A stretch of 64,000 bases of DNA from Lutimonas saemankumensis (GTDB lineage: Bacteria; Bacteroidota; Bacteroidia; Flavobacteriales; Flavobacteriaceae), in the NCBI RefSeq assembly GCF_020171465.1, contig NZ_JAIUZR010000003.1, positions 1,302,001 through 1,366,000 on the forward strand, given 5' to 3'. Positions 42,252 to 59,993 of the stretch are shown piece after piece. The notes beneath the pieces were generated by a model. That model made no database searches and was not told the origin of the DNA. It worked only from the letters and a program-made list of their open reading frames with translations. A program made the translations under genes and the position numbers. Within the stretch, counting starts at the first letter, position 1. The number at the start of each line of letters is the position of its first letter.

Positions 42252-44117
42252 TTAAAAGTCAGGTAAAATACAGTTTTCTGATAGATTCAAAAGTAATGGA
42301 TTTAGTCCTTCCTTCAACGCCCTTGTCATAACTTTTGAAGATTCCTCATGACACTCAAGGCAGGCCCCTACCTTAAGAACATGTTTCTGTTCTTCAATAT
42401 TCAAGGGCCTGAAGTCTTTACGAGTTGACACTTTTCCATCTGATTCCCCCTCCAGGAAGCCTATCCATGCATCTTCAGGTTTGCCATCGATAGGGTTATC
42501 AGCATAATCCGGTTCAAAACTCCATTTTCCTGTATTTCCATGGATCGTGTATATAAGTTTCCCTTTGCCATAACCCAGGGCTGAAGGATCCTTATGGCAG
42601 GAAGCACAGCTTCTTGCGCCCTTGCCCGTGGTATGGGGGGCATTAGCCGCATAGAGTCTTTCAAACTTTTCTTCATCCCCTGCCTCTATGGACAAGATCA
42701 TTCCCGGTATGGCCGGTTGGTATTTTTTGCCTTCTTTAACCTCTCTCACTCCAAGTGAAGGAAGCCCTGTTTCAAATTCGAAGACATGCTCTACCCAGGT
42801 TCCACGTGTCAATTGTTTATCCAGCAGATCATATCCTCTTTGCGTCTCATTGTAAGTATTATGACATCCGATACAGCGTGGAGCCCACTGAGAGTGACAT
42901 GTGGAACAACTCAATTCGGAATGCGCAAGATCTCTGGCACAAGTCTCTGCCTGAGGTTTAATTAAGTGTTTCTTTCCGTCCTTTTTACCTATCAGATAAA
43001 GATTTTTATTTTCATCGAGATAAGTGTTCACCAAAGGGTGCCCATCATCTTTAACACGTAACATTTTATGGTCCTGATGCGAATATTCCCGGTGCATAAA
43101 CACGAGTAAGGATTCCTTATCAAGGTCTTCATAATTTACTGTTAGCGGTTCCTCCTGATAATGACAATCATCACAGCGCAACGAAACCGCGTCTTCCTCG
43201 TGTATATACCTGTTCCCATCCCCCATCACCTCGTGTGAACTATGGCAATCAATACATAACAAACCTTTGGAATGATGCACATCTTCCCCCTTGAATTCAT
43301 AGACCCTTTTGTCCTGAAATACCTTGTACTTTAAGGTGTCCTTAACCTCATCCTCTTCCAGTAAGGTTTCGTGCCATCCCATATAGTTGGATGAAATTCT
43401 GGAGGACCTGCTGTGACATCCGAAACAATGTTCATCCTGCACAAAAATATCTGTTGAGGGATGAACCGTAGGTAATTCTTTTTTTGAAGATGAAAGATAG
43501 TTATGTAAATGATTCTCGGCCTGATCTGAATAGTTTAAATGACATGCGTTACATCCACCTCCCCTGCTGAGTTGATCAATTTTTCCCAATTCGGTTTTCT
43601 CTGCCCCCAGATGACAATTCGCACAAAGGTTTCTTAAATGTTCATCTGAAGAATCATACCCGAGATTTCTTATATCATAATGAAGATCGGGGCTGTCCGT
43701 TTCACCAAAAACATATTTATCTACTGCAACAATACCGCTATTGGTGGTCATCAAAGATTGACTGACCTTATACAGTTCATCAGGATGACAGGACCCACAG
43801 GTCTGTTCTGCATTACTCAGATTTCCCGGAATCAGGACCATATCCTGATGGGCTTTCTTTTTGTCGGTTTCGCTTCCGTTGCCAAGGTGACAAACTACAC
43901 AACCTATTAAACCCGGATCGTGATATTTTGAAAAGCCTTCTACCCGGATGTGGCATTCCATACAGGATTCTTTTGACTCGTCGATTTTATCATAGGCATA
44001 TTCAACTGTGTTTTCCAACTCTTTGTCAAAATGTTTCAACACCTGCCATATTGATACAAAGATCAGTATGATCATTGCGGGCCAGCTCCTGCTGAAATAT
44101 TTACGGAAAGCACTCAT
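42252..44117 (-). CDS. Membrane-anchored dodecahaem cytochrome c
   Basis: A 621-residue protein with one N-terminal helix (residues 13-28) and no cleavage site, then a periplasmic region with twelve CxxCH haem-binding motifs. In order: CMECH (52-56), CVVCH (73-77), CGSCH, CANCH, CNACH, CFGCH, CIDCH, CDDCH, CSTCH, CIGCH, CASCH and CLECH. It is divergent from the molybdoenzyme genes and shares their control region. It probably moves electrons between the quinone pool and the periplasm. The last motifs resemble cytochromes of the octahaem tetrathionate/hydroxylamine group, but I cannot assign an activity. No matching c-haem maturation genes are in the window. Confidence 0.9.
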   Translation of the reverse strand: MSAFRKYFSRSWPAMIILIFVSIWQVLKHFDKELENTVEYAYDKIDESKESCMECHIRVEGFSKYHDPGLIGCVVCHLGNGSETDKKKAHQDMVLIPGNLSNAEQTCGSCHPDELYKVSQSLMTTNSGIVAVDKYVFGETDSPDLHYDIRNLGYDSSDEHLRNLCANCHLGAEKTELGKIDQLSRGGGCNACHLNYSDQAENHLHNYLSSSKKELPTVHPSTDIFVQDEHCFGCHSRSSRISSNYMGWHETLLEEDEVKDTLKYKVFQDKRVYEFKGEDVHHSKGLLCIDCHSSHEVMGDGNRYIHEEDAVSLRCDDCHYQEEPLTVNYEDLDKESLLVFMHREYSHQDHKMLRVKDDGHPLVNTYLDENKNLYLIGKKDGKKHLIKPQAETCARDLAHSELSCSTCHSQWAPRCIGCHNTYNETQRGYDLLDKQLTRGTWVEHVFEFETGLPSLGVREVKEGKKYQPAIPGMILSIEAGDEEKFERLYAANAPHTTGKGARSCASCHKDPSALGYGKGKLIYTIHGNTGKWSFEPDYADNPIDGKPEDAWIGFLEGESDGKVSTRKDFRPLNIEEQKHVLKVGACLECHEESSKVMTRALKEGLNPLLLNLSENCILPDF

Positions 44118-44141
44118 CTTTACTTTTCAGCTAATTCTCAA

Positions 44142-44149
44142 CAAAACTA
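44142..44149 (-). promoter_or_regulatory. -7 promoter element of the cytochrome gene
   Basis: On the minus strand the bases read TAGTTTTG, an exact match to TAnnTTTG, 25 bases before the cytochrome start codon. No good -33 element is seen, as expected of a promoter needing an activator. Confidence 0.55.
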
Positions 44150-44200
44150 CGACCACCATTTTTTTTAAATTATGAGCAATGACAGTTTTTTGACTCTGAT

Positions 44201-44218
44201 ATGTGACCGGAGTCACAT
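44201..44218. promoter_or_regulatory. Perfect Crp/Fnr-type palindrome between cytochrome and molybdoenzyme genes
   Basis: ATGTGACCGGAGTCACAT has perfect 7-bp arms around a 4-base centre, and its core TGTGA-N6-TCACA is the classic Crp geometry. It fits the pattern GTNAC-N4-GTNAC, also seen before the third rhodanese gene, the regulator gene and sqr. It lies between divergent promoters and could serve both. The likely binder is the Crp/Fnr-family protein encoded at 54306. Confidence 0.7.
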
Positions 44219-44225
44219 TTCAATA

Positions 44226-44237
44226 TGATTTTTATCA
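44226..44237. promoter_or_regulatory. Fnr-like site TGAT-N4-ATCA before the molybdoenzyme gene
   Basis: TGATTTTTATCA has the Fnr core half-sites. Its centre (44231.5) lies 29.5 bases upstream of the TA of a -7-like element, which equals about -41.5 from the transcription start, a class II activator position. The same spacing is found before sqr. Confidence 0.55.
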
Positions 44238-44260
44238 GCTAATCAACTCCTTCTCAGCTC

Positions 44261-44268
44261 TAATTTTA
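44261..44268 (+). promoter_or_regulatory. -7-like promoter element of the molybdoenzyme operon
   Basis: TAATTTTA matches TAnnTTTG except for the last base, 62 bases before the start codon. No -33 TTTG is seen, so dependence on the upstream activator site is plausible. Confidence 0.4.
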
Positions 44269-44329
44269 CAATTGAAACAAGAGGGAAAAATTCATTCATG
44301 CATTTTCAATTCCATAAATTTCAATCGAG

Positions 44330-46573
44330 ATGAACAATTCACGCAGGTCATTTATCAAGCTTTCTGCCCTGGGAGCAAGTGGTGTGGCTTTATCTTCTGC
44401 AGCATTTAGTGCAATTCCCATAAAAGACACAATAAATTCCGGAGTAGCTAAAATCGATCCTTTGCCGCTCAAAAGAACGGCTACTTATTGTGAGGTCTGT
44501 TTTTGGAAATGTGCAGCCTGGGCTTTTTCTGATGAACAAGGCACGATTCATAAGATCATTGGAAATCAAAATGACCCCCATTGTTTTGGGCGTTTGTGCC
44601 CAAGAGGAACCGGTGGGGTTGGAATGTACAGTGACAAGGACCGGTTAAAACACCCCTTGATTCGAACCGAAATCAATGGCAAACAGGAATTTAAAGAGGC
44701 CAGCTGGGAAGAGGCCCTGAATTTAGTTGCCAGTAAAATGCAAACCATAAAAGACCAATACGGGCCCGAATCTATGGCTTTGATCAAACACGGCTCGCCC
44801 GGAAGTCACCTTGAACACCTATTTAAGGCATATGGTTCTGACACAATCGCTGAGCCCGCTTATGCCCAGTGTAGGGGCCCACGAGAAACTGGTTTTGGAC
44901 TGACTTTTGGTTCCTGGGTAGGTTCTCCCGAACCCACTGATATCAGAGATACAAAATGTCTCGTACTCATTGGCTCTCATTTAGGTGAAAATATGCATAA
45001 CAGTCAGGTTCAGGAAATGTCCGATGCCATTGACAACGGAGCAAAGATCATAACAGTGGATCCAAGGTTCTCAACGGTTGCCAGTAAATCACAGTTTTGG
45101 CTCCCTATCAAACCGTCTACGGATATAGCGCTCCTCCTCTCATGGATGCATGTTTTGATTTATGAGGATCTCTACAACAAAGAGTATGTAGAAAAATATG
45201 GTCATGGTTTTAAAGCGCTTAAAAAGCATGTCAAACCATTCAGCCCGGAATGGGCCTATGGTATCACGGCCATTAAACCTGATCAAATCAGGAAAACTGC
45301 AAGAGCCATGGCCGCCGCGGCACCTTCAACAATTGTTCATCCCGGTAGGCATGTTACCTGGTACGGAGATGATTCCCAACGTGCAAGAGCCGTTGCCATT
45401 CTTAATGGCCTTCTGGGATCATGGGGAAACAAGGGTGGCTTTTATTTTAAAGAAAAAATCAAAATTCCAAAATACCCACATCCAAAATACCCACATCCAA
45501 AATGGGGATGGAAAGAGATCGGCGAAAAATTTCCATTTGCCGAAATGGGAAATACAACCGAAGTTATCAAAGCTTCTATAGCATCTGAAAATCAAAAATA
45601 TCCCATTAAGGGATGGTTTGTGGCAGGAACAAATCTGGTTGCTTCCGTACCTCAAAAAAACATCATTGAGAAAGCCGTTGAATCACTCGAATTTATTGTG
45701 GTTATGGATACCATGCCCATGGAAATTACAGGCTATGCAGATGTAATACTCCCGGAATGCACCTATCTGGAACGCTATGACGGGTTGCGATCATCTCCTA
45801 ACAGAGAACCTTCAGTTGCTTTAAGAGCCCCTGCCGTGGAACCTCAATACAACACGAAGCCTGCCTGGTGGATGGCGAAAGAATTAGGAAATCGTCTTGG
45901 GCTAGCCGATTATTTTGACTTTGAAAATATTGAAGAAGTGCTGGACTGGCAACTTAAGCAGATCGGCAGCTCGCTTAAAGAAATGAAAAAAATTGGTGTG
46001 AAAAATTTCAAGAGAAAATCGGGCCCTCTCTATCTGGAAAAAGGGAAACCTTATGAATTTCCGACCCAATCAGGAAAAATCGAATTTTATTCAGAGGAAC
46101 TGGCCGGCATGGGACTTGATCCAATGCCCGTATACACTCCTCATGAAACGCCTGATTCCGGATTTTACAGACTTAACTATGGAAGATCTCCAATGCACAC
46201 CTTCAGCAGAACCATCAACAATCCGAATCTAAGCGACTTAACGGATGAAAATACACTTTGGGTGAACCCAAAGGTTGCAAGAATAGAAAATTTGAAAAAG
46301 GGCCAGGAAGTCTGGCTCGAAAATCAGGATGGAATAGTATCGCAGTTTCCGATTAAAGTTCGCGTTACGGAAAGAATTCGATGGGACTCGGTTTATATGT
46401 ACCATGGTTTTGGACATAATAATAAAAAATTATCCAGAGCCCATGGAAAAGGAATCAGCGATACTGATATGATAACAAGAATCAAGGTTGATCCGCTAAT
46501 GGGTGGAACAGGCATGCGAGGTAATTTTGTAAAAATCCATGCTGAAAACCCGGCAAAAGAAGTACTGATATGA
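44330..46573 (+). CDS. Molybdopterin oxidoreductase, PsrA/PhsA type catalytic subunit
   Basis: A 747-residue protein of the DMSO-reductase superfamily. A twin-arginine signal (SRRSFIKLSA) sends it folded to the periplasm. C54-x2-C57-x3-C61 with C90 forms the Fe-S site, and C181 in AYAQCRGPRETGF is at the place of the cysteine molybdenum ligand of polysulfide and thiosulfate reductases. The length matches PsrA/PhsA (about 760) better than TtrA or SoeA (near 1000). Residues around 380-390 include a short in-frame repeat (KYPHP twice). The B-subunit gene overlaps it by 4 bases. The likely substrate is polysulfide, thiosulfate or tetrathionate; the direction of reaction is not known. Confidence 0.88.
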   Translation: MNNSRRSFIKLSALGASGVALSSAAFSAIPIKDTINSGVAKIDPLPLKRTATYCEVCFWKCAAWAFSDEQGTIHKIIGNQNDPHCFGRLCPRGTGGVGMYSDKDRLKHPLIRTEINGKQEFKEASWEEALNLVASKMQTIKDQYGPESMALIKHGSPGSHLEHLFKAYGSDTIAEPAYAQCRGPRETGFGLTFGSWVGSPEPTDIRDTKCLVLIGSHLGENMHNSQVQEMSDAIDNGAKIITVDPRFSTVASKSQFWLPIKPSTDIALLLSWMHVLIYEDLYNKEYVEKYGHGFKALKKHVKPFSPEWAYGITAIKPDQIRKTARAMAAAAPSTIVHPGRHVTWYGDDSQRARAVAILNGLLGSWGNKGGFYFKEKIKIPKYPHPKYPHPKWGWKEIGEKFPFAEMGNTTEVIKASIASENQKYPIKGWFVAGTNLVASVPQKNIIEKAVESLEFIVVMDTMPMEITGYADVILPECTYLERYDGLRSSPNREPSVALRAPAVEPQYNTKPAWWMAKELGNRLGLADYFDFENIEEVLDWQLKQIGSSLKEMKKIGVKNFKRKSGPLYLEKGKPYEFPTQSGKIEFYSEELAGMGLDPMPVYTPHETPDSGFYRLNYGRSPMHTFSRTINNPNLSDLTDENTLWVNPKVARIENLKKGQEVWLENQDGIVSQFPIKVRVTERIRWDSVYMYHGFGHNNKKLSRAHGKGISDTDMITRIKVDPLMGGTGMRGNFVKIHAENPAKEVLI
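45467..45503 (+). repeat. In-frame 15-bp tandem duplication inside the molybdoenzyme gene
   Basis: The unit CCAAAATACCCACAT occurs twice in direct succession (45467-45481 and 45482-45496), with a partial third copy CCAAAAT. It adds five residues (KYPHP) twice in a surface-like, Lys/Pro-rich part of the protein. Confidence 0.9.
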
Positions 46574-47103
46574 AATATGCAATGGTCATAGACACCTTAA
46601 AATGTGTGGGTTGCAGCGATTGTGTCGTTGCATGTCAAACTGAAAACCAGGTTCCTGTCGGTTATTGTCGTGACTGGGTTACTGAATCTGTAAACGGAAG
46701 TTATCCGAAGCTCAATTTGGAATTAAAATCAGAACGTTGTAATCAATGTGACAATGCACCTTGTGTCCGTTGTTGCCCAACCGGTGCAAGTCATAAAACT
46801 GAAGGAGGAATAGTTTTGGTTAAGGCTGATGAATGTATTGGTTGCGGTGCCTGTATCGCTTCTTGTCCTTATGATGCCAGATATCAGCACCCTGATGGCT
46901 ACGTTGACAAATGTACTTTTTGTGCCCACAGGCTCAAAGAAGGCCAACTCCCCGCCTGTGTGTCTGTCTGTCCTACAAAATGCATGTATTTTGGAGATAT
47001 TGAAGATCCTACCAGCAAAGTTTCTCATCTCCTAAAATCCAGAAAATATAAAGTTCTGGCTCCTGAAGCCGGAACCAAACCGAATGTTTATTATCTAATT
47101 TGA
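46570..47103 (+). CDS. Four-cluster ferredoxin-like electron-transfer subunit, PsrB/PhsB type
   Basis: A 177-residue Fe-S protein with four cysteine clusters: CVGCSDCVVAC, CNQCDNAPCVRCC, CIGCGACIASCPYDAR, and CTFCAHRLKEGQLPAC with later CPTKC. These carry four [4Fe-4S] centres that connect the catalytic subunit to the membrane subunit. No signal peptide; it is expected to be exported with the Tat-bearing partner. It overlaps the upstream gene by 4 bases and lies 11 bases before the membrane subunit gene. Confidence 0.93.
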   Translation: MKYAMVIDTLKCVGCSDCVVACQTENQVPVGYCRDWVTESVNGSYPKLNLELKSERCNQCDNAPCVRCCPTGASHKTEGGIVLVKADECIGCGACIASCPYDARYQHPDGYVDKCTFCAHRLKEGQLPACVSVCPTKCMYFGDIEDPTSKVSHLLKSRKYKVLAPEAGTKPNVYYLI

Positions 47104-47114
47104 CATATTGAATC

Positions 47115-48056
47115 ATGCAAGAAGAACTATTCATAAGCGGAAGAAATATACCAAAGATCGATCCATCCCTGGAGGTCTGGCATTTTCCGATATCCCTCTA
47201 TCTATTCTTAGGGGGCATGGCAGCCGGAATCATTTTCTTTGCTTCGCTTTTTACAATCCTGGGAAAAGAAAAAAAAGTGCAAACAGCCATAAAACCCGCA
47301 ATGATCATTGTACTATTTGCCCTAAGTATCGGCTTAATTGCATTATTTTATGACCTTACCCACAAACTATATGTTTGGAGGCTATATACTACCCTAAGAG
47401 TTGAATCCCCGATGTCCTGGGGGGCCTGGGTACTTTTGTTTGTCACAGTCGCCAGCTTCTTATGGGTATTCAGCTATTTTTCCGAATTGTTCCCAAAGTG
47501 GTCCATTAAAACAGGTTGGCTTAAAAACTTTGAACGCTACCTGATCAATCACAGGAAGCAACTGGCGATCATACTGTTGCCTCTTTCTATAATTCTGGGA
47601 ATCTACACGGGGATACTGCTGTCTGCATTTAATGCAAGGCCTTTATGGAATAATGCCATTTTGGGGCCTTTGTTTCTTGTTTCGGGCTTGTCAACCGGAG
47701 CTGCCTGTATCATTTTATTCTCCCGAGATCATATTGAAAGAAAGCTGTTCAGTAAAATAGACCTGGCTTTAATCATTATTGAACTTGCCCTTATTGCTCA
47801 TATGCTAATGGGAATGTATGCGGGTTCAGCAGTTCAACTCGAAGCCCTTGACATACTGATTAGAGGAGAATATACCGTCATGTTTTTTGTATTTGTCATC
47901 TTATTAGGGTTGATGGTTCCAGCCCTCCTTGAAAGTATTGAGTTATTAGGATTTAAAGTTCCGGTGGCCATTCCCGCGCTATTAATCCTAATTGGAGGAC
48001 TGATATTCAGGATGGTAATGATCGAAGCAGGTCAGTTAACTAGATACTTATATTGA
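47115..48056 (+). CDS. NrfD/PsrC-family membrane quinone subunit
   Basis: A 313-residue protein with eight or so membrane helices. It begins with a periplasmic-side segment and WHFPISLYLFLGGMAAGI, the usual NrfD/PsrC start. It couples quinone oxidation or reduction to the Fe-S subunit. The length is close to PsrC (317), supporting a PsrABC-type complex without a b-type haem subunit. The next gene begins 3 bases later. Confidence 0.9.
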   Translation: MQEELFISGRNIPKIDPSLEVWHFPISLYLFLGGMAAGIIFFASLFTILGKEKKVQTAIKPAMIIVLFALSIGLIALFYDLTHKLYVWRLYTTLRVESPMSWGAWVLLFVTVASFLWVFSYFSELFPKWSIKTGWLKNFERYLINHRKQLAIILLPLSIILGIYTGILLSAFNARPLWNNAILGPLFLVSGLSTGAACIILFSRDHIERKLFSKIDLALIIIELALIAHMLMGMYAGSAVQLEALDILIRGEYTVMFFVFVILLGLMVPALLESIELLGFKVPVAIPALLILIGGLIFRMVMIEAGQLTRYLY

Positions 48057-48059
48057 GAC

Positions 48060-48590
48060 ATGGAAAAGAAAGAAAATCAAAATCGGCACATATACTGGAA
48101 CCCTTATTTCGGTGGCTTCCTTTTAGGTCTGCTTATCCTGTTCACCTTTTATGTAACCGGGAGAGGTCTTGGAGCCAGTGGAGCTTTAAAAAGCAGCGTT
48201 GTAACAGTTGTCAATAAAGTATCTCCCGAGCACAGTGAAAGTAACGCCTACTACAGCAAGTTTCTGAAAGGATCAAATTCTCCGATGAATAACTGGCTTG
48301 TCTTTGAGGCGATAGGTGTAATCATGGGAGCTTTTCTTTCAGGTGTACTTACCGGAAGAATTCAATGGCGAACCCAGCATTCCCCTAAAATTACAGCCAG
48401 AAGGCGCCTGGTATTTGCCTTGATAGGTGGATTGCTGTTCGGGTTTGGAGCGCAAATCACAAGAGGATGTACCAGTGGAGCCGCTTTGAGTGGTATTTCC
48501 ATGATGGCAACTGCAGGATTTATAAGTATGCTATCCATATTCGGTACCGGATATCTGGTAGCATATTTTTTTAGAAAAAACTGGATATAA
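48060..48590 (+). CDS. YeeE/YedE-family half-size transporter, first copy
   Basis: A 176-residue membrane protein with four or so helices. The key motif is ITRGCTSGAALSG with C137, matching the cysteine motifs that pass thiosulfate in the structurally known YeeE transporter. Full-size YeeE proteins hold two such halves; here the halves are separate genes 17 bases apart. Likely imports thiosulfate or another sulfur species, perhaps as a heterodimer with the next protein. Confidence 0.87.
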   Translation: MEKKENQNRHIYWNPYFGGFLLGLLILFTFYVTGRGLGASGALKSSVVTVVNKVSPEHSESNAYYSKFLKGSNSPMNNWLVFEAIGVIMGAFLSGVLTGRIQWRTQHSPKITARRRLVFALIGGLLFGFGAQITRGCTSGAALSGISMMATAGFISMLSIFGTGYLVAYFFRKNWI

Positions 48591-48607: not shown

Positions 48608-49198
48608 ATGGGACCACTTATTCCAAATGAAATCATACCCGTTGAATGGAACTTTGTATTGGCAATTCTGATAGGAATGGCTTTTGGCTTCATCATGGAA
48701 GCGTCAGGATTTTCTTCCTCGAGGAAACTTGTCGGAGTTTTTTACGGTTATGACTTTGCCGTCCTTAAGGTATTTCTAACTGCCTGTCTGGTTTCTTTGA
48801 TTGGCCTGAGTTATATGAATTATCTGAACTGGATTGACCTGGATCAACTCTTTGTCCAGCCTACTTTTTTATGGGCATCCTTGATAGGAGGTGTTACAAT
48901 GGGAGTCGGATTTCTTGCAGGTGGATTTTGCCCCGGAACCAGTCTTTGCGCCGTTGGGATAGGAAAAATTGACGGGATTATATTTACTATCGGCCTTTTT
49001 ATAGGAATTTTAGTGTTTTCCGAATTATTTCATTGGATCGAACCCATTTATGAAGACTTTAATCTGGGACATGTTACCCTGGATGAAACTCTCGGAATAT
49101 CCAGAGAAACCATAATTTTTGGATTTACGCTGTTAGCCATACTTGCTTTTGCCGTTTCAGATCGAATCAGAAAACGTACAAAAAAAATATTCTACTAA
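48608..49198 (+). CDS. YeeE/YedE-family half-size transporter, second copy
   Basis: A 196-residue membrane protein with five or so helices. GFIMEASGFSSSRKLVG and GGFCPGTSLCAVGIGKIDG are the conserved motifs, with C108 and C114. It complements the previous half-size protein. The rhodanese-fold gene follows 11 bases later, so sulfur uptake and sulfur-carrier proteins are made together. Confidence 0.87.
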   Translation: MGPLIPNEIIPVEWNFVLAILIGMAFGFIMEASGFSSSRKLVGVFYGYDFAVLKVFLTACLVSLIGLSYMNYLNWIDLDQLFVQPTFLWASLIGGVTMGVGFLAGGFCPGTSLCAVGIGKIDGIIFTIGLFIGILVFSELFHWIEPIYEDFNLGHVTLDETLGISRETIIFGFTLLAILAFAVSDRIRKRTKKIFY

Positions 49199-49209
49199 AA
49201 CAAAACATC

Positions 49210-49878
49210 ATGTCTGCCACATACAAAACCAAAAGAATCCTTGTCAAAAGAAGCTATCAATTCCTGGCTGTTTTATTGATTCTTCTTGCAGCGGGCCTTT
49301 TTCTGCTTCCGGATATACAAAAACATGAAGGCCTTTCCCCGGAACACTATGTTAAGAACATGTTGAGCTCAGAAAGATATATAAGTTCTGATGAACTTGC
49401 TGACCGGATAATCAATCAGGATCCCGCTTTGCTCATTATAGATACAAGATCCCCCGAAGCATTTGAAAAATACAGTCTTCCGAATGCCATCAATATTCCG
49501 GTATCAGAAATATTCAACCCGGAAAACAATATGTATCTGGATCAGGAAGTATACGATATTGTTTTGTATTCAAATGATCATTTTTTTGCCGAAGAGGTAT
49601 GGATGATTGGAAACAGACTAGGATACCAAAGATTGTATGTGCTTCAAGGAGGCCTTAATGCCTGGTTTAATACGATCATCAAACCTCCGTTTCCGGATCA
49701 GACCATGCCTAATAAAGCTTTTGAATTGTATAATTTCAGAAAAGCAGCAGGCAAGTATTTTGGAGTTAATATGGATACCATTGAGGTCATAACAAAAATT
49801 AAAGTGGCTCCAGAACCTAAAAAAAAGGTGGTTCCAAAACCGAAGAAAAAGAAACGGATGCCTGAGGGTGGATGTTAG
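49210..49878 (+). CDS. Membrane-anchored degenerate rhodanese with C-terminal MPEGGC, copy 1
   Basis: A 222-residue protein with an N-terminal anchor (FLAVLLILLAAGLFLL, residues 18-33) and a rhodanese domain (LLIIDTRSPEAFEKYSLPNAINIP). The catalytic loop reads VLYSNDHFFAEEV, so the cysteine is gone. The chain ends in a Lys/Pro-rich arm and MPEGGC; C222 is the only cysteine in the protein. The arm is expected in the periplasm. By design it looks like a tethered single-thiol carrier, perhaps of sulfane sulfur, but this is inference. Confidence 0.82.
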   Translation: MSATYKTKRILVKRSYQFLAVLLILLAAGLFLLPDIQKHEGLSPEHYVKNMLSSERYISSDELADRIINQDPALLIIDTRSPEAFEKYSLPNAINIPVSEIFNPENNMYLDQEVYDIVLYSNDHFFAEEVWMIGNRLGYQRLYVLQGGLNAWFNTIIKPPFPDQTMPNKAFELYNFRKAAGKYFGVNMDTIEVITKIKVAPEPKKKVVPKPKKKKRMPEGGC

Positions 49879-49929
49879 AAACAATAAGATATATGAATTG
49901 AATGATTTAGCTTACTCCAATAATAGATT

Positions 49930-50556
49930 ATGAAAGAATTAGAAAAAACCAAGAGAATATCAATTTCAGCAATTCTCTTTTTACTCGTCCTCGTTGTTGG
50001 TTTCGTAACGATTAGAAAACCTGATGTGTTTTTCACGAAGGACTCAGATCACACCCTTCAGTTTTTAAATGATGACGCTTATATTATTCAGCTTGATTCG
50101 CTTGCTTTAATGGAGAAAGGGTCTTATTTGTTGATCGACAATAGAAGTAATTTTGAATACACAAAAGGACATATGGTCGATGCTGTTAATATTCCCCAAA
50201 ATCAGATTTTAAAAAAAGAGTATCTCGATGTTATAAAAAATGCCGCGGCAAACAATAAAACGATCATTATATATAATGAAACTCCTGAGATAGCTAACAA
50301 TTCATGTCTGCTTTTGTATCAGCTTGGCATTGAGAATTTAAAGCTACTTGCAGTAGATGCCTATTACCAGAGTGAAACCTTTAAAATTGTCGACAACACA
50401 ATTGAGGATCCATTGTACGATTATGCTCAAACCATGAAAGAAGCGGGAATTGCCCCGGTGAAGAAAATAATACAAAAACAAAAAACTTTACCTCAAAAGA
50501 AAAAAGTTGTTACGAAACCCAAAAAGAAGAAGAAAATGCCGGAAGGAGGATGTTAA
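49930..50556 (+). CDS. Membrane-anchored degenerate rhodanese with C-terminal MPEGGC, copy 2
   Basis: A 208-residue paralogue of the preceding protein in plan, not in close sequence: an anchor (residues 11-28), a rhodanese domain (LIDNRSNFEYTKGHMVDAVNIP), a Lys-rich arm and MPEGGC. The catalytic loop is IIYNETPEIA, without cysteine. Apart from C208 there is one cysteine, C126, in a helix. It ends the operon; a strong terminator follows. Function as in copy 1, inferred. Confidence 0.82.
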   Translation: MKELEKTKRISISAILFLLVLVVGFVTIRKPDVFFTKDSDHTLQFLNDDAYIIQLDSLALMEKGSYLLIDNRSNFEYTKGHMVDAVNIPQNQILKKEYLDVIKNAAANNKTIIIYNETPEIANNSCLLLYQLGIENLKLLAVDAYYQSETFKIVDNTIEDPLYDYAQTMKEAGIAPVKKIIQKQKTLPQKKKVVTKPKKKKKMPEGGC

Positions 50557-50597
50557 AATGCGAATCCTTAGGCTAAGTTAGTTGATTGTTTTGTTAA

Positions 50598-50630
50598 ATG
50601 CCCTGCTCTTTGCAGGGCATTTTTTTTTTA
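50598..50630 (+). terminator. Terminator of the molybdoenzyme-YeeE-rhodanese operon
   Basis: Perfect 9-bp GC-rich stem ATGCCCTGC / GCAGGGCAT with a 5-base loop and a run of nine T, about 40 bases after the last stop. It ends a seven-gene operon that starts at 44330. Confidence 0.93.
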
Positions 50631-52037: not shown

Positions 52038-53054
52038 ATGAAAAAAATAAATCTATTCGTCTTAGCATTATTATGTATACCGGCAATATTGCTCAGTTCC
52101 TGTGACAGAGGTGACGATATCAATCCGGAAAATCCAATTATGGAACCTGCATTTGATGTCATGAAAAGATATATGCTTGATAATCAACTGGATCTTGGGA
52201 ATATATTGAGCGGACCTGGTGGAGAGGTCAAATTTGTTGCCGGTGCACCTGCCGAAGCTGATTTAGATGCCTTCCTAAACAAATATACGATTCTAGATAT
52301 ACGCTCAACGGAAGCGTTTAATTCCGGGCATATTCAGGGAGCAAAAAACATTGCATTTGCTGATATTCTCACCGAAGGTGATGCAGCTTCCAAAAGGATT
52401 CTTGTAGTTTGTTACACAGGCCAAACAGCTTGCTTTGCAACCTCCTTATTACGTCTTGCGGGCCATAGTGATGCTCAGGCACTAAAATGGGGAATGTCCG
52501 GCTGGAACGCAGATACATCGGGTCCATGGTATTCAAAAACAGGAGACGAAGCAAAAGGTCATACCAACTGGGCTGCACATAGTGCTCCTTCTAAAATCAC
52601 TTACGAGGATCCGTTCATTGATATCTATTCTGCAGACGGAGCTGATATTTTAAAACAAAGAATTGAAGCAGTAGTTGCAGGAGGATTCAAAACCGCAAAA
52701 GGAACGGATGTATTGAATAACCCATCTAATTACTTTATCAATAATTATTTCAGCGATACGGATTATGGAAACTTCGGACATATTCAGGATGCATTCAGAA
52801 TTAAAGAAGAATTAAAACTGGAAGGAAATGGAACCAACTATTTAAATCCGGAAAACAATGCAAAAGTCATCACATACTGCTATACCGGTCAAACTTCTGC
52901 TGTAATTACAGCTTGGTTGCAGGTACTTGGTTATGATGCCTACAGTATGACCTTTGGAATGAATGGTATCTATCATTCTAATCCGGCATGGGGACCAAAT
53001 CAGTGGGGTGTAGGATCTTCTGTTCCTAAGAACTTACCATTGATCAAAAATTAA
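52038..53054 (+). CDS. Tandem rhodanese lipoprotein, both domains active-type
   Basis: A 338-residue lipoprotein (lipobox LLSSC, C22) with two rhodanese domains. Both carry an intact loop: VCYTGQTACF (C125) and YCYTGQTSAV (C281). ILDIRSTEAFNSGHIQGAKN marks domain 1. It is related to the upstream gene and follows it by 36 bases. Both domains could take up a persulfide, unlike the asymmetric neighbour. Faces the periplasm or the outer membrane. Confidence 0.87.
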   Translation: MKKINLFVLALLCIPAILLSSCDRGDDINPENPIMEPAFDVMKRYMLDNQLDLGNILSGPGGEVKFVAGAPAEADLDAFLNKYTILDIRSTEAFNSGHIQGAKNIAFADILTEGDAASKRILVVCYTGQTACFATSLLRLAGHSDAQALKWGMSGWNADTSGPWYSKTGDEAKGHTNWAAHSAPSKITYEDPFIDIYSADGADILKQRIEAVVAGGFKTAKGTDVLNNPSNYFINNYFSDTDYGNFGHIQDAFRIKEELKLEGNGTNYLNPENNAKVITYCYTGQTSAVITAWLQVLGYDAYSMTFGMNGIYHSNPAWGPNQWGVGSSVPKNLPLIKN

Positions 53055-53071: not shown

Positions 53072-54124
53072 ATGAAAAACATCATTTCGATTTTTATCGT
53101 ACTAGTCCTTGTTATGCTCAGCTCTCAGGTACAAGCCCAGGGTTGTGACGCAGAGGACCCTAATGACACCATAGCACCGCCAAAGATCAAACTTTTTGGT
53201 TTTATTCAACCCGAATACAATTACACCTTTTCTGACCCAGCTGAAAGCACTTTTAAGTTCAGAAGAGCAAGAATAGGTGTAAGAGGTCGATTGTTCGAAG
53301 ATTTTACTTATTATTTCATGTTGGAAACAAGTCCATTTATTAATGGTGGAAATGAAGGAAGAGCATACCTGATGGATGCCTTTGTTACCTGGGACAAATA
53401 CAACTGGGCCAGAATTGCAGTAGGTTCCTACAAACAGCCTTTTGGACTTGAAGTTCAAACCGCATGTAACGCATTAATCACCATTGACCGTGCCATTGTT
53501 TCGGACCAGCTTGTTGTCCCTCAAAGGGATTATGGTATCTCTGTCTGGGGTGGTAATGTGAATACCCGACTAAATTATGCAGTTGCCCTTATGAATGGTA
53601 AGGGATTACTCACAACAGATAACAACAATAAAAAGGATATCGTTGGGCGCGTAACCTACAAGCTTTTTGATTTTGTTACCATTGGAGGTAGTTTCAGATA
53701 TGGTTACCCAAAGCTTAACAATGACGAAGACAGTAGAACCACTTATGGTGGGGAAATCCTTTTTGACATCAATAATCTTCATATACAAGGGGAATATATC
53801 TATGACGAGGGTGCTTATGACCCCGGAGCAGATGCCGGCTGTGGAGGTGAACCACTTGCCTTGGGAGAAAAAAGAGACGGAGCTTATGGCATGATCTGGT
53901 ATGATACCAAGTGGAACCTGCAACCTGTTTTTAAATATGAGTTCTTTGATCAGGATCTTGACCTTAAGGATGTTCCTTATCGTTACAGCGAAAGAATGAC
54001 TCTAGGCCTCAATTATTACTTTAACAAAGCCGTACGATTACAAGTCAATTATCAGGCCAACATTGAAACTGTAATCAATCAGGACAACGATAAATTCTTG
54101 GCACAAATTCAAGTAGTTTTCTAA
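53072..54124 (+). CDS. Outer-membrane porin, phosphate-selective (OprP/OprO)-like
   Basis: A 350-residue beta-barrel protein with a signal peptide ending near SSQVQAQG. IKLFGFIQPEYNYTFSD, then FKFRRARIGVRGRLFEDF, match the OprO/OprP porin family. The chain ends in a phenylalanine (QIQVVF), as outer-membrane barrels do. Being 17 bases after the rhodanese gene, it probably admits the oxyanion substrate of the system. Anion choice is inferred. Confidence 0.83.
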   Translation: MKNIISIFIVLVLVMLSSQVQAQGCDAEDPNDTIAPPKIKLFGFIQPEYNYTFSDPAESTFKFRRARIGVRGRLFEDFTYYFMLETSPFINGGNEGRAYLMDAFVTWDKYNWARIAVGSYKQPFGLEVQTACNALITIDRAIVSDQLVVPQRDYGISVWGGNVNTRLNYAVALMNGKGLLTTDNNNKKDIVGRVTYKLFDFVTIGGSFRYGYPKLNNDEDSRTTYGGEILFDINNLHIQGEYIYDEGAYDPGADAGCGGEPLALGEKRDGAYGMIWYDTKWNLQPVFKYEFFDQDLDLKDVPYRYSERMTLGLNYYFNKAVRLQVNYQANIETVINQDNDKFLAQIQVVF

Positions 54125-54170: not shown

Positions 54171-54204
54171 AAAACTCCCTGGTAAATTGCCAGGGAGTTT
54201 TTTT
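54171..54204 (+). terminator. Terminator of the rhodanese-porin operon
   Basis: Perfect 10-bp stem AACTCCCTGG / CCAGGGAGTT with a 7-base loop, followed by a T run. It sits just before the operator of the regulator gene. Confidence 0.92.
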
Positions 54205-54206
54205 AG

Positions 54207-54220
54207 GTAACAAATGTTAC
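54207..54220. promoter_or_regulatory. Palindromic site before the Crp/Fnr-family regulator gene
   Basis: GTAACAAATGTTAC has perfect 6-bp arms with a 2-base centre and fits GTNAC-N4-GTNAC. Lying about 58 bases upstream of the expected transcription start of the regulator gene, it suggests autoregulation. Confidence 0.65.
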
Positions 54221-54238
54221 AGTATGATAAATGTTCTA

Positions 54239-54305: not shown

Positions 54306-54959
54306 ATGAATACACAGGAATTAATTTTAAGGGAAAAAATAGCTGAATATTATGGCTCTATTTTTGAAAAGGAGCTTGTCGAAGAAATCGTCAAAGTAGG
54401 ATTTATCGATAAATACAAGCACGGTGAAATCCTTGTCGATATTGGTGAGAACATGACACATATCCCTCTAATACTCAACGGGGCTGTAAAGATCATAAGG
54501 AAGGAAAAAGAAGGCGAGGAACTCGTTTTATATTTTCTTGAAAAAGGAGATACCTGTGCCATTTCATTTATTAATTGTATCAATAGAAAAGAAAGTATCT
54601 TCAGGGCCGTGGTTGAAAATGATACAGAAGCCATTTTTTTACCGGTGGAATACATTGATGACTGGCTGGCCCTTTATAAAACCTGGAGACATTTTATCAT
54701 TGACAGTTATCACTTCAGGCTTATTGAAATGGTCGAATCCATTGACGGACTTGCCTTTATGAATATGAACCAGCGACTGATGAAATATCTTGGGGACAAG
54801 GCCAAAATCAATCAAGATGTAAATCTTGAGATCACACATCAGGAAATTGCTGATGATCTCAACACTTCAAGAGTTGTTGTTACTCGTTTGCTGAAGCAAT
54901 TGCACAATGAAGGTAAAGTTTATTCCACAAGAAATAAAGTACAGGTTCTTGAACTGTAA
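54306..54959 (+). CDS. Crp/Fnr-family transcriptional regulator
   Basis: A 217-residue protein: a cyclic-nucleotide-binding-type sensor barrel, a dimerisation helix, and a winged helix-turn-helix at the C-terminus (ITHQEIADDLNTSRVVVTRL). It has only two cysteines, C84 and C91, in GDTCAISFINC of the sensor domain, and no N-terminal Fe-S cysteines, so it is not an oxygen-type Fnr. By position and by palindromes before its own gene and three sulfur promoters, it probably controls the sulfur island. A thiol or persulfide signal is possible, but this cysteine pair is also common in other flavobacterial Crp-type proteins. Confidence 0.85.
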   Translation: MNTQELILREKIAEYYGSIFEKELVEEIVKVGFIDKYKHGEILVDIGENMTHIPLILNGAVKIIRKEKEGEELVLYFLEKGDTCAISFINCINRKESIFRAVVENDTEAIFLPVEYIDDWLALYKTWRHFIIDSYHFRLIEMVESIDGLAFMNMNQRLMKYLGDKAKINQDVNLEITHQEIADDLNTSRVVVTRLLKQLHNEGKVYSTRNKVQVLEL

Positions 54960-54985
54960 TTAAGCTCTGTAATGATAAATTTGCT

Positions 54986-56995
<2,010 letters not shown>

Positions 56996-57075
56996 TTAGG
57001 CACTAAAAATAATCTTTTTTTTATTTTTTTTTAATTTGAATACAGGTCTTATATAAAAAATACCTCAGCCTTTGT

Positions 57076-57089
57076 GTCACTTAAGTTAC
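57076..57089. promoter_or_regulatory. Crp/Fnr-like site before sqr
   Basis: GTCACTTAAGTTAC fits GTNAC-N4-GTNAC. Its arms are not fully complementary, so it is a weaker site than those at 44201 and 54207. About 100 bases before the start codon. Confidence 0.45.
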
Positions 57090-57118
57090 TGAAAATAGTG
57101 ACTTTACGATCAAAAATA

Positions 57119-57130
57119 TGATTTAAATCA
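57119..57130. promoter_or_regulatory. Fnr-like palindrome TGAT-TTAA-ATCA before sqr
   Basis: TGATTTAAATCA is a perfect 12-bp palindrome with the Fnr half-site core. Its centre (57124.5) is 29.5 bases upstream of the TA of the -7 element, the same as at the molybdoenzyme promoter; both are also preceded by AATA. Confidence 0.6.
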
Positions 57131-57153
57131 CATATTGAAAAAAAACCTCGCTC

Positions 57154-57161
57154 TATCTTTG
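57154..57161 (+). promoter_or_regulatory. -7 promoter element of the sqr operon
   Basis: TATCTTTG is an exact TAnnTTTG match, 26 bases before the start codon. A possible TTG lies 16 bases upstream (57135-57137). Confidence 0.6.
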
Positions 57162-57187
57162 TGCTATAATTAATTAAGACAAATATT

Positions 57188-58426
57188 ATGAAGAAGCTAG
57201 TGATTTTAGGAGCTGGAACAGCCGGAACAATGATGCTGAACAAATTGCATCATGAACTCGATAGAGAGGAATGGGAAATCACAATTGTAGATCAGTACAA
57301 AACGCATTATTATCAACCCGGGTTTTTATTTATTCCATTTGGAATTTATAACAAGAAAGATGTCATTAAACCCAAATATGACTTTTTCCCTCCAGGTGTA
57401 AACGTGATCTTCAGCCCGATCGATAAAATTGTAGGTGAAGAGAACAAGGTATTGCTCGAGGATGGAAAAGTACTGAATTACGATTTTTTGATCATCGCAA
57501 CGGGTACGGAGACAAGACCTTCTGAAACGGAAGGGTTACAAGACAAATTATGGTATAAAGACATTTTTGACTTTTATACGGTTGAAGGTGCAGTCGCCTT
57601 GCAAAAGCGCTTTAAAGACTGGGAAGGTGGAAAACTGGTTATGTGTATTCCTGAATTACCCTATAAGTGTCCCGTGGCACCCATAGAGTTTGTATGTCTT
57701 GCGGAAGCCTATTTTGCTGAACGTGGAATGAGAGATAAAGTAGACATTACTTATGTTACTTTAATGTCAGGTGCTTTCACAAAACCCGTAGCGTCAAAAG
57801 TACTGGGAGATCTTTTAGAAGAAAAGAACATTAAGGTAGAAGCTGATTTCTATTTAAGTCATGTAGATAACGAAAACAAAAAGATTGTCTCTTACGATGA
57901 CCGGGAAATTGATTTTGATATTTTAACCATTGTTCCCGTAAATATGGGATCAGATATGATCGAAAGAAGTGGATTAGGTGATGACATGAATTATGTTCCC
58001 ACGGACAAACATACCTTACAATCAAAACAATTTGAAAATATCTTTGTCATTGGAGATGCCTCAAATATTCCAACGTCAAAAGCAGGATCTGTAGCACATT
58101 TCGCTGCTGAAATCCTAACAGAGAACATCTTAGCCGCCGTAGAAGGACGAGAATTACCTGCTAAGTTTGATGGTCACGCTAACTGTTATATTGAAACAGG
58201 TTACGGAAAAGGAGCATTGATCGATTTCAATTATGAAACTGAGCCCCTTCCAGGGACCTTCCCTTTACCTGGAATCGGACCCTTTGGATTATTGAAGAAC
58301 ACCAAAATGAACCACTACGGGAAAATCTTGTTTAGATGGATCTACTGGCACATTTTGCTCAAGGGAAGAGAATTACCCATTGAAGCCGATATGACCATGG
58401 CCGGTAAAAAAAGAGTGACAGCATGA
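57188..58426 (+). CDS. sqr: Sulfide:quinone oxidoreductase-like flavoprotein
   Basis: A 412-residue FAD enzyme of the SQR/FCC group. The ADP-binding loop is VILGAGTAGTMM, then LIIATGTETRP and the FAD block NIFVIGDASNIPTSKAGSVAH. Two of the three SQR redox cysteines are seen: C161 in LPYKCPVAP and C333 in HANCYIETGYGKG. The first, near residue 128, is absent. The C-terminal helices (NHYGKILFRWIYWHILL) probably dip into the inner membrane. Oxidises sulfide to persulfide or polysulfide and reduces quinone. Overlaps the next gene by 4 bases. Confidence 0.85.
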   Translation: MKKLVILGAGTAGTMMLNKLHHELDREEWEITIVDQYKTHYYQPGFLFIPFGIYNKKDVIKPKYDFFPPGVNVIFSPIDKIVGEENKVLLEDGKVLNYDFLIIATGTETRPSETEGLQDKLWYKDIFDFYTVEGAVALQKRFKDWEGGKLVMCIPELPYKCPVAPIEFVCLAEAYFAERGMRDKVDITYVTLMSGAFTKPVASKVLGDLLEEKNIKVEADFYLSHVDNENKKIVSYDDREIDFDILTIVPVNMGSDMIERSGLGDDMNYVPTDKHTLQSKQFENIFVIGDASNIPTSKAGSVAHFAAEILTENILAAVEGRELPAKFDGHANCYIETGYGKGALIDFNYETEPLPGTFPLPGIGPFGLLKNTKMNHYGKILFRWIYWHILLKGRELPIEADMTMAGKKRVTA

Positions 58427-59112
58427 AAACGATAGCAGAAGATACAAATATTCAAATGCAGATTGATGCACTTGATAAAAAAATGGACATGATACTGGGC
58501 TATGTCCAGCAACAAAATTCGCAATCAAGAATGATTGAGGATCTTGTTAGCGACCTCAGTATCGTTGGAAAGGATGCTTATGAATCAACAGTTGCTGAGC
58601 TTGACAAAAGACAGGTTGAACTGGATCCGTCCGAACTGACAGGATTGGCCGTATCGTTTCTTAGAAATGTAGGGAATATTAAAGCCGTAATGGATACCCT
58701 TGAGATGGCAGTGGACCTGGGTAAAGAAGTTGGCCCAATAGCGAATGAGGTAATCATTGACTTTACAAAACAAATGAATTCTCTCGAGGAAAAAGGATAT
58801 TTTGACTTTATACGAGAAATCGGGCCTGTGGTAGACAATATTGTTCAGGGATTCAGTCCTCAGGACCTAAAGGAACTTGCCAATAGCATCGTTTCAATTC
58901 TAAACATTGTCAAAGAAATGACCCAGCCCGAGGTTTTAAATACCATGCAAAATGCCATTAAAGCATTTAACAGTATGGAAACTGAAAGCGTTCCTTCCTA
59001 CTCAGTCTGGAAACTGATGAGAGAAATGAACAGCCCCGAAATGCAAAAAGCACTGGGTTACGGAATAACTTTTATGAAAAATGTCTCTAGAGACGTAAGT
59101 ATAGAAAAATAA
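58423..59112 (+). CDS. DUF1641 protein, partner of SQR
   Basis: A 229-residue, largely helical protein of the DUF1641 family without membrane segments (KMDMILGYVQQQNSQ near the start, VSFLRNVGNIKAVMDTL in the middle). Such proteins are often next to SQR-like flavoproteins or formate dehydrogenase genes. Its 4-base overlap with sqr points to a complex or accessory role. Molecular function not known. Confidence 0.8.
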   Translation: MKTIAEDTNIQMQIDALDKKMDMILGYVQQQNSQSRMIEDLVSDLSIVGKDAYESTVAELDKRQVELDPSELTGLAVSFLRNVGNIKAVMDTLEMAVDLGKEVGPIANEVIIDFTKQMNSLEEKGYFDFIREIGPVVDNIVQGFSPQDLKELANSIVSILNIVKEMTQPEVLNTMQNAIKAFNSMETESVPSYSVWKLMREMNSPEMQKALGYGITFMKNVSRDVSIEK

Positions 59113-59144
59113 ACAATTAAATAAATAACTTAAATAATAATATT

Positions 59145-59456
59145 ATGGCTTTACAAACAATCGCAGGAGCACAGATCAATGTATCAGAAGATGGATATCT
59201 TGAAAATATGAATGAATGGAATGAAGACGTTGCAAGAGAAATCGCCAGTGAAATTGGTATCGAGTTAACGGATAAACATTTCGAGGTTTTGAACTATTTA
59301 AGAGACAAAACTGAAGCAGGTGAATCTTTAACAATAAGAAAGGTCGGGAAATCAGGAATAACTGACATCAAAGGACTTTACAAACTTTTCCCTAAAGGGC
59401 CTCTAAAATACTCAGCAAGAATCGCTGGTATTCCAAAACCCGCAAGTTGTGTGTAA
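59145..59456 (+). CDS. DsrC/TusE-family sulfur-carrier protein lacking the second cysteine
   Basis: A 103-residue protein of the DsrC/TusE/DsvC family. EDGYLENMNEWNEDVAREIA and GGLxKLFPKGP-like IKGLYKLFPKGPLKY match the family. The C-terminal arm ends PKPASCV with the carrier cysteine C102. The partner cysteine that dissimilatory DsrC proteins have 11 residues earlier is an alanine here (A91, in SARIAGIPKP), so it cannot form the DsrC trisulfide and works with one thiol, like TusE. Cytoplasmic. Followed by dsrE-like gene after 33 bases. Confidence 0.88.
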   Translation: MALQTIAGAQINVSEDGYLENMNEWNEDVAREIASEIGIELTDKHFEVLNYLRDKTEAGESLTIRKVGKSGITDIKGLYKLFPKGPLKYSARIAGIPKPASCV

Positions 59457-59489
59457 AAGATCAATTCCTTCAATGTAAAATATAGAATT

Positions 59490-59993
59490 ATGAGTACAGA
59501 AGAAAAAAAACCATTAGAAAAAGTATGTATTATTTGCGCCAAAGGATCTTTGGAAGATGTATATGCAACATTAGTAATGGCAAACGGTGCCGTTATGGAA
59601 GGTATTGAAACAAACGTATTCTTTACTTTCTTCGGACTGGATGGAATTACTAAGGAACGTCTGAACAGCTTACATACAGCTACAACCGGAAATCCGGCCA
59701 TGCGAATGCCGGGAGGGCTTCCATTCCCAACCATGCTTGGAGGTTTGCCTGGAGTTGAAGCAGGGGTGTCTAAAATGATGCGTAATCAGATGGAAGAACT
59801 GGATATTCCTCCTGTTGATGAGTTCCTTGAAATGATTACGGCAGGTGGTGGAACAATTTATGCCTGTAAACTGGCTGTGGATATGTTCAAACTGGAAAAA
59901 GAGGACCTTCATGAAGAAGTAGATTCGATCATCACGATTGGAGATTTCTACGGACTTTGCGATGGTGACAGAACACAAATTATCTTTACATAA
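59490..59993 (+). CDS. DsrE/DsrF/DrsH-like (DsrE2-type) sulfurtransferase
   Basis: A 167-residue protein with the DsrE fold. KVCIICAKGSLEDVYATLVM begins the domain and the conserved cysteine C126 is in GTIYACKLAVDM. This is the usual carrier cysteine of DsrE-type proteins. It likely exchanges persulfide with the DsrC-like protein just upstream. It closes the sqr-DUF1641-dsrC-dsrE unit. Confidence 0.87.
   Translation: MSTEEKKPLEKVCIICAKGSLEDVYATLVMANGAVMEGIETNVFFTFFGLDGITKERLNSLHTATTGNPAMRMPGGLPFPTMLGGLPGVEAGVSKMMRNQMEELDIPPVDEFLEMITAGGGTIYACKLAVDMFKLEKEDLHEEVDSIITIGDFYGLCDGDRTQIIFT

Follow-up and report, generated by a model that had tools for sequence, protein, structure and literature searches.

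A putative terminal-cysteine sulfur arm beside polysulfide reductase-like and split YeeE genes in Bacteroidota

Here we describe a sulfur-metabolism island of Lutimonas saemankumensis and, within it, two rhodanese-fold proteins, RhdA and RhdB, whose Lys-rich tails end in a cysteine. The island lies in a stretch of 64,000 nucleotides (the window; contig NZ_JAIUZR010000003.1, positions 1,302,001 to 1,366,000). It carries genes for a PsrABC-type molybdoenzyme, both halves of a split YeeE transporter, four rhodanese-fold proteins, a 12-haem cytochrome, a porin, a Crp/Fnr regulator and a sulfide:quinone oxidoreductase (SQR) cassette. An earlier note on this DNA had listed these open reading frames (ORFs) and families as a sulfur island, and scans with Pfam and NCBIfam models bore this out. 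Only the family of ligA, which sits between the two halves on the opposite strand, was taken from that note's naming.

The earlier note took the combination to suggest an uncharacterised pathway. Sub-combinations are already in print (the papers cited here are represented by the available parts of their texts). Desulfurivibrio dismutans also has a Psr enzyme with an exported multi-domain rhodanese, a lipoprotein, and a porin with rhodaneses and YeeE/YedE, for which polysulfide reduction and sulfur import were proposed (PMC12142623). Unlike Lutimonas, it belongs to the Desulfobacterota and has the Dsr pathway, and the available text does not describe a split YeeE with a GGC-tailed rhodanese, a 12-haem cytochrome or an SQR cassette. 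The Geobacter cluster extHIJKLMNOPQS likewise encodes a rhodanese (ExtH), a porin (ExtI) and a 12-haem cytochrome (ExtM), and its Rieske protein ExtO and cytochrome b ExtP recall the cytochrome b-fused 12-haem cytochrome found near a Rieske gene in other Bacteroidota; in contrast to the island, neither Psr nor YeeE is described in the available text (PMC5877670).

YeeE proteins carry thiosulfate or zero-valent sulfur and their cysteines are essential (PMC11582611). The PmpA/PmpB pair consists, like the YeeE proteins of the window, of an N-terminal and a C-terminal half as separate proteins, with one conserved cysteine each. The window halves are longer, with 176 and 196 residues compared to about 130, and unlike PmpA/PmpB as described there, halves of the window type usually adjoin, and elsewhere fuse to, a rhodanese with a terminal GGC. 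Psr, SQR and rhodaneses are found in cable bacteria, along with the YTD cluster (PMC13047784), and candidates for disproportionation genes have been compared (PMC12998232), while the available texts of PMC11976967 and PMC9088280 held nothing decisive for the island. Neither the GGC tail nor a YeeE2-rhodanese fusion is described in the available parts of these four papers, of the Desulfurivibrio and Geobacter papers or of PMC8359478. Beyond these partial precedents, neither the island nor the pairing of YeeE with a GGC-tailed rhodanese turned up in print, in a search that most subscription papers fall outside.

The tail of RhdA and RhdB is the one element for which no description was found; the remaining parts of the island are known. 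In the window, Cys222 is both the last residue and the only cysteine of RhdA. Elsewhere, 92 of 94 distinct rhdA ORFs end in GC, the exceptions being one contig end and one truncated ORF, and so do 64 of 67 rhdB ORFs (exceptions L123, at a contig end, L124 and L145). These counts are unselected; our alignment of 45 RhdA rows (A3) was picked among ORFs ending in GC, and its invariant GC is there by choice. The tails close with a terminal GGC or EGC. Among the ORFs ending in GC, the catalytic cysteine was missing in 91 of 94 RhdA and all 66 RhdB proteins, which thus lack the mark of an active rhodanese. It is kept in the first domain of RhdC and in both domains of RhdD (the four proteins hold six rhodanese domains, one each in RhdA and RhdB and two each in RhdC and RhdD).

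The sulfur carrier SoxY has a GGCGG tail which acts as a flexible sulfur arm. RhdA and RhdB resemble it in having Gly-Gly-Cys on a presumably flexible tail, the proposed sulfur arm. Unlike SoxY, with which they share no homology, they have a rhodanese fold, a membrane anchor, a mostly Lys-rich tail and the cysteine as the very last residue; Pfam Rhodanese was their only match, SoxY fold and GGCGG tail being absent, and the likeness we claim is functional. Since the lone cysteine after Gly-Gly resembles the SoxY arm and YeeE moves sulfur by essential cysteines, we infer that the terminal cysteine would bear a persulfide and that the tail would swing as an arm. The rhodanese domain is probably periplasmic, as we read the Lys and Arg residues before the transmembrane (TM) helix by the positive-inside rule.

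Within a genome, the tails of rhdA and rhdB (49210-50556) evolve in concert and the bodies do not. Over 64 loci, the agreement of the tails was 88%, compared to 54% (maximum 59%) in shuffles. For the bodies the values were 26.5% and 26.7%.

Split YeeE genes were recognised by PF04143, whose N-terminal and C-terminal parts are matched by separate proteins with one conserved cysteine each. When we searched 395 Bacteroidota genomes with the rhdA profile, 61 matched at E<=1e-15. At the stricter threshold of E<=1e-47, every match spanned to the profile end; these matches came from 26 genomes, every one of them with PsrA. Of 37 other genomes reached through the weaker matches, 34 lacked PsrA. In 30 of the 37 loci fetched from them the rhodanese is fused to YeeE2; 24 fusions end in GGC and six carry one residue beyond it. 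Six other loci have a separate rhodanese adjoining both YeeE halves (tails MGC in four, GGC in one and FQC in one), and the last is a fragment without YeeE. Despite the diverged rhodanese part, GGC is invariant in 28 of 28 aligned fusions (alignment A4; two with longer N-termini were left out), and none of the 28 has a cysteine at the catalytic position.

We read the surroundings of the fusion in 20 of the 30 genomes (L264-L283). It sits behind a gene for octahaem tetrathionate reductase (OTR) and b561 in all 20, with yeeE1 in between in 19; in the twentieth, a yeeE1 match was listed beside the fusion. The octahaem protein of a related locus matches PF11783 and PDB entry 1sp3 (E 3e-123), which we take to be the Shewanella OTR. 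In the model of one fusion, blocks of the rhodanese domain had a predicted local distance difference test score (pLDDT) of 78-93 and the tail only 30-48, as would be the case for a flexible arm. A plasmid search with one fusion protein gave two records, each matching the YeeE part only. In seven of the 20 regions a MerR-like regulator was called directly upstream.

The molybdoenzyme of the window has the three parts of PsrABC, namely a twin-arginine molybdenum subunit (Molybdopterin), a Fer4_11 subunit and an NrfD subunit. PsrA aligns along its full length with the catalytic subunit of Thermus thermophilus polysulfide reductase (PDB 2vpw), a likeness seen at the level of sequence. Cys181 is invariant in 16 of 16 aligned proteins and pairs with a cysteine of 2vpw chain A, presumably the molybdenum ligand. 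Against the PhsA equivalog PsrA scored 483 bits, below the cut-off of 694, and Psr, Phs and Sre are not distinguishable by sequence according to the available text of PMC8359478.

PsrA (E<=1e-100) was found in 43 of the 395 genomes, 29 of them outside a family that we call f18, and the 12-haem cytochrome (E<=1e-30) in 13, all with PsrA (Fisher p 5e-14, indicative only as the genomes are related). The order psrABC-yeeE1-yeeE2-rhdA-rhdB recurs across Bacteroidota. Of the 42 other PsrA genomes, 40 (all except G044 and G241) supplied flanking regions, and both yeeE halves were called beside psr in 21 of 28 regions outside f18; the others are contig ends, missed ORFs or true absences. Our simple ORF picker misses genes, especially in G+C-rich loci, and in G135 it overlooked a yeeE pair adjoining psr that a later search found. 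We also examined 80 named loci, the best of at least 556 relatives; many of the 80 end at contig borders. The three psr genes were called in 76, both yeeE halves in 68 and rhdA with rhdB in 66; the cytochrome is unfused in 37 and fused to cytochrome b in 21, 23 loci have a Rieske gene and 21 have rhdD with the porin. The carriers include Mangrovimonas, Tamlana, Salinimicrobium, Winogradskyella, Lutibacter, Maribacter, Draconibacterium and many metagenome-assembled genomes. The earlier note had remarked on the combination in a flavobacterium; the psr cluster is thus not special to one flavobacterium. The genomes of f18 are smaller (their loci are among L058-L070) and have a distant PsrABC of 43-45% identity, with no YeeE or rhodanese genes called alongside.

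The cytochrome has 621 residues with 12 CXXCH motifs and is the sole multihaem frame in the whole window. The 12 haem sites are common to 40 aligned relatives, which also share an invariant non-haem cysteine near the C-terminus (Cys616). In the Flavobacteriaceae form there is only a TM anchor. In the cytochrome b-fused forms the third haem motif is CX4CH and not CXXCH, and a Rieske gene is usually near; such a protein with an N-terminal cytochrome b beside a Rieske gene was seen at L037:2236-5350, in L150, in L162 and in others. A fold search with the cytochrome model gave no match at E<=0.001, and there is no relative by sequence in the PDB at E<=0.01.

The second half of the island, beyond ligA, is the SQR cassette. 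Its SQR scored over the cut-off for type III, and Cys161 and Cys333 pair with cysteines of the SQR structure 8dhk which we assume to be catalytic. The DsrC protein is not of the two-cysteine dissimilatory kind: it has Cys102 only, and the other cysteine of DsrC in 1yx3 pairs with an alanine. In the 30 SQR loci examined (the best 30, window included), dsrC and dsrE2 adjoin sqr in all 30, and the cassette is therefore a unit of its own. The full sqr-duf1641-dsrC-dsrE2 cassette stands within about 10 kb of psrA in eight of the 80 named loci, upstream of psr in L150, L178, L179 and L184 and downstream of rhdB in L161, L165, L169 and L176. The earlier note had proposed that gene order and co-occurrence across Bacteroidota would tell whether the island is coherent. 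Gene order spoke for it in these eight loci; co-occurrence across the phylum was weak. Taking type III SQR as present at our own threshold of E<1e-100, SQR and PsrA co-occur in 17 of 43 PsrA genomes with f18 included (p 0.012), and SQR is present in 5 of 13 genomes with the cytochrome (p 0.009). Outside f18 they meet in five genomes, among 29 with PsrA and 38 with SQR, which is not significant (p 0.22; f18 genomes with neither gene were counted among the non-f18 ones). By this test, the two halves are separable modules.

A similar palindrome precedes genes of both halves. TGTNACN4GTNACA, with at most one mismatch, occurs six times in the window (chance mean 0.98; one of 100 shuffles had as many), and three of the matches lie in the promoter regions of the cytochrome and psrA, of crp and of sqr. 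A degenerate form was found in 18 of 37 divergent regions between cytochrome and psrA (shuffled mean 0.08, maximum 2), an enrichment which is flattered as the refined palindrome was shaped partly on the sequences it was tested on. A consensus like that of E. coli CRP, tried first, was noisy and was replaced by the refined pattern. Upstream of sqr in the 30 best SQR matches, the window's own included, we counted three perfect palindromes (two genomes of the same class and G134, a genome of the window's family), two with one mismatch (the window and one genome of the same class) and 25 with two to four; these are raw counts without a chance expectation. From the palindromes before cytochrome/psrA, crp and sqr we propose a putative common Crp/Fnr-type control, which probably covers both halves. 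In several Bacteroidota loci, psrA, OTR and sqr are preceded by regulators with a Cys-rich C-terminus that we read as MerR-like, where the gene of the window is of the Crp/Fnr family.

Taken together, the island could be a dissimilatory sulfur system in which reduction by Psr, the arm, import through YeeE and the inner SQR, DsrE2 and DsrC proteins work under Crp/Fnr control, a reading to which we give slightly less than even confidence. PsrABC would be a menaquinone-linked periplasmic molybdoenzyme, most likely reducing polysulfide, sulfur or thiosulfate at low oxygen. Sulfur would enter by the Porin_O_P porin and be handled by the rhodanese lipoprotein RhdD and the exported RhdC. RhdA and RhdB would be periplasmic platforms, with the rhodanese fold and no catalytic cysteine, and the terminal cysteine on their flexible basic tail would ferry persulfide between Psr or a rhodanese and YeeE1 with YeeE2. 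The split YeeE channel would pass sulfane sulfur or thiosulfate across the inner membrane. In the cytoplasm, DsrE2 and the one-cysteine DsrC would accept the sulfur, and type III SQR would re-oxidise sulfide into the quinone pool. The Crp/Fnr regulator would probably govern both halves. That the tail is constant, that it is found in fusions with YeeE2 and that the genes lie in this order makes RhdA a likely go-between of a periplasmic enzyme and the YeeE channel. We favour a reductive role, since PsrABC and OTR-b561 alike have the look of quinol-linked periplasmic enzymes and bear the name of reductases. The earlier note held that the direction cannot be read from the sequence, and we agree; the likeliest use of the island would be polysulfide or thiosulfate respiration, its direction unproven.

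We tentatively extend this to a device of Bacteroidota, in which a catalytically dead periplasmic rhodanese with a terminal-GGC persulfide arm and a split YeeE would serve both PsrABC and OTR-b561 and couple periplasmic sulfur respiration to import. If so, it adds a periplasmic sulfur carrier unrelated to SoxY. The arm stands behind both PsrABC and OTR, usually with YeeE, which suggests that OTR in these bacteria acts on sulfur and not on nitrogen compounds. The named loci show that Psr-like genes are common among the Bacteroidota of groundwater and marine sediments, and the function of these genes has so far been unreadable; the proposed arm would single out one cysteine as a concrete handle on it.

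Several observations weigh against the dissimilatory system with its arm. The most direct is that rhdA follows psrC with no YeeE half between them in 6 of 93 loci with both genes, from five genomes (L032 and L141 of one genome, L138, L154, L163 and L174), at a gap of 15-142 bases and with tails ending in GGC or EGC. One of these genomes (G296, with L032), which belongs to the family of the window and is 99% complete, combines Psr with the arm and gave no YeeE match genome-wide at E<=0.001. We therefore dropped the idea that RhdA is always a YeeE subunit and lowered our confidence both in the dissimilatory system and in the Bacteroidota device. The arm can thus work with Psr alone, the link to YeeE being usual and not obligatory, and in psr clusters the partner that stays constant may be Psr. 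If the device is real, the loci of G296 and the four other genomes would represent a reduced version of it, with an arm that serves only Psr. The tail cysteine could instead be structural, a metal-binding site or an attachment site. Gene conversion may stand behind part of the tail agreement, as identical tail positions share codons in 388 of 655 cases (59%, compared to 45% expected from pooled usage); since the other 41% differ, recent gene conversion alone is not a sufficient explanation. In the fusion model the membrane half is of poor quality (predicted template-modelling score 0.52), and the sidedness is thus our reading of the charge distribution. The other three of the six palindromes in the window fall inside genes, and the motif may belong to a global regulator. 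Finally, SQR uses up the sulfide which a reductive Psr would make, and the weak co-occurrence of SQR with PsrA outside f18 counts in the same direction.

The first alternative is that Psr runs in reverse. It would then turn sulfide into polysulfide and reduce menaquinone, and the island would serve sulfide oxidation or detoxification; oxygen (cbb3), nitrate (Nap) or the 12-haem cytochrome would receive the electrons, and YeeE would import sulfane sulfur. SQR is part of the island, and psr-like enzymes of sulfur oxidisers may run backwards, according to the available text of PMC8359478. The cytochrome b-fused cytochrome and the Rieske protein of the named loci would form a quinol-to-cytochrome chain. 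The own genome of the window (3.58 Mb) has napA and ccoN over cut-off and none of OTR, dsrA and SoxB, which makes the reverse use possible. This agrees with the earlier note, which saw no dsrAB or sox genes in view, and leaves its sulfur disproportionation without support as far as the Dsr route is concerned. The set of the YTD cluster (yedE, tusA and dsrE together with conserved hypotheticals) is absent from the island, and no TusA domain was found among the scanned island ORFs, a genome-wide TusA search not having been made. We searched dsrA, SoxB and OTR in 29 of the 43 PsrA genomes, those of f18 with their distant PsrA (14) being left out. Only one of the 29 had dsrA over cut-off (582 bits; G357:C6:19486-20646), about 10 kb from psrA. 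Nevertheless, sulfide oxidation is already possible by SQR alone, and the related YeeE-arm module stands behind OTR and b561, a reductase by name, in all 20 regions. We consider the reverse reaction unlikely, though a serious contender.

The second alternative is that a respiratory set of Psr and YeeE and an SQR cassette for the detoxification of sulfide are chance neighbours without a joint pathway. The self-contained cassette and its non-significant co-occurrence with PsrA fit this, and in G134 the two halves are 0.74 Mb apart. However, the full cassette recurs beside psr in the eight named loci in two other arrangements, and a similar palindrome precedes psrA and sqr in the window, with the perfect match before sqr of G134. 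Chance neighbourhood thus appears improbable to us, and the coherence claimed by the earlier note stands to that extent.

That the cytochrome, porin and rhodanese part reduces selenite or tellurite, with sulfur incidental, as proposed for Geobacter ext, is very improbable: the cytochrome and the porin match ExtM (240 bits) and ExtI (61.5 bits), the matching SQR model is named 'selenoprotein subtype' and a Geobacter extI mutant was impaired in selenite and tellurite conversion (PMC5877670, available text), but both matches are far under the curated equivalog cut-offs (800 and 150 bits), it is Psr and YeeE that are conserved as neighbours, and the window has no second multihaem frame, unlike ext.

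Table 1. Features of the island, in positions of the window.
Feature	Position	Strand	Support
12-haem c-type cytochrome, one N-terminal TM helix; ExtM homologue below cut-off	42252..44117	-	NCBIfam 240 bits, cut-off 800; model pLDDT 85
Crp/Fnr-type palindrome TGTGACCGGAGTCACA between cytochrome and psrA	44202..44217	.	similar motif in 18/37 orthologous regions
psrA, molybdoenzyme catalytic subunit, twin-arginine start, conserved Cys181	44330..46573	+	PDB 2vpw, E 7e-192
psrB, 4Fe-4S subunit	46570..47103	+	Fer4_11
psrC, NrfD-type membrane subunit	47115..48056	+	NrfD
yeeE1, C-terminal half of split YeeE (PmpA-like), conserved Cys137	48060..48590	+	profile 175-309; Cys in 95/97
yeeE2, N-terminal half of split YeeE (PmpB-like/DUF6691), conserved Cys108	48608..49198	+	profile 10-154; Cys in 95/95
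rhdA, TM anchor, rhodanese fold without catalytic Cys, Lys-rich tail ending GGC	49210..49878	+	Pfam Rhodanese
rhdB, second protein of the rhdA kind, same tail type ending GGC	49930..50556	+	
G+C-rich hairpin then T-run, likely terminator of the psrA-rhdB unit	50597..50621	+	
rhdC, exported two-domain rhodanese, single Cys123 in first domain	51000..52001	+	
rhdD, two-domain rhodanese lipoprotein (LSSC/DRGDD, lipobox cut at the slash), CYTGQT in both domains	52038..53054	+	
Porin_O_P outer-membrane porin; ExtI homologue below cut-off	53072..54124	+	61.5 bits, cut-off 150
Hairpin then T-run, likely terminator after porin	54174..54198	+	
Crp/Fnr-type palindrome, 1 mismatch, upstream of crp	54206..54221	.	
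crp, Crp/Fnr-family regulator	54306..54959	+	
Crp/Fnr-type palindrome, 1 mismatch, upstream of sqr	57075..57090	.	
sqr, type III sulfide:quinone oxidoreductase, Cys161 and Cys333	57188..58426	+	648 bits, cut-off 525
DUF1641 protein	58423..59112	+	
DsrC/TusE-family sulfur carrier, penultimate Cys102 only	59145..59456	+	
DsrE2-like sulfurtransferase, Cys126 in 9/9 aligned	59490..59993	+	90 bits, cut-off 210
Hairpin after dsrE2, possible terminator	60002..60026	+	

Besides the divergent cytochrome, the layout suggests four transcription units (psrA-rhdB, rhdC-porin, crp and sqr-dsrE2); the borders are proposed from the hairpins after rhdB and the porin, both with T-runs, and after dsrE2. The G+C content of the island (37-42%) is inside the range of the remaining window and gives no compositional sign of acquisition as a block. 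A contig binned as Candidatus Gracilibacteria (L117) carries a Flavobacteriaceae-like psr cluster of 76% identity, probably a binning error. The own genome has a second YeeE-type pair outside the island, with Sulf_transp matches at G000:C4:555202-556171. The lipobox is present in 21 of 22 relatives of RhdD, and Asp-rich starts recur after it; the DRGDD of the window protein recalls, we presume, the surface-lipoprotein signals of Bacteroidota.

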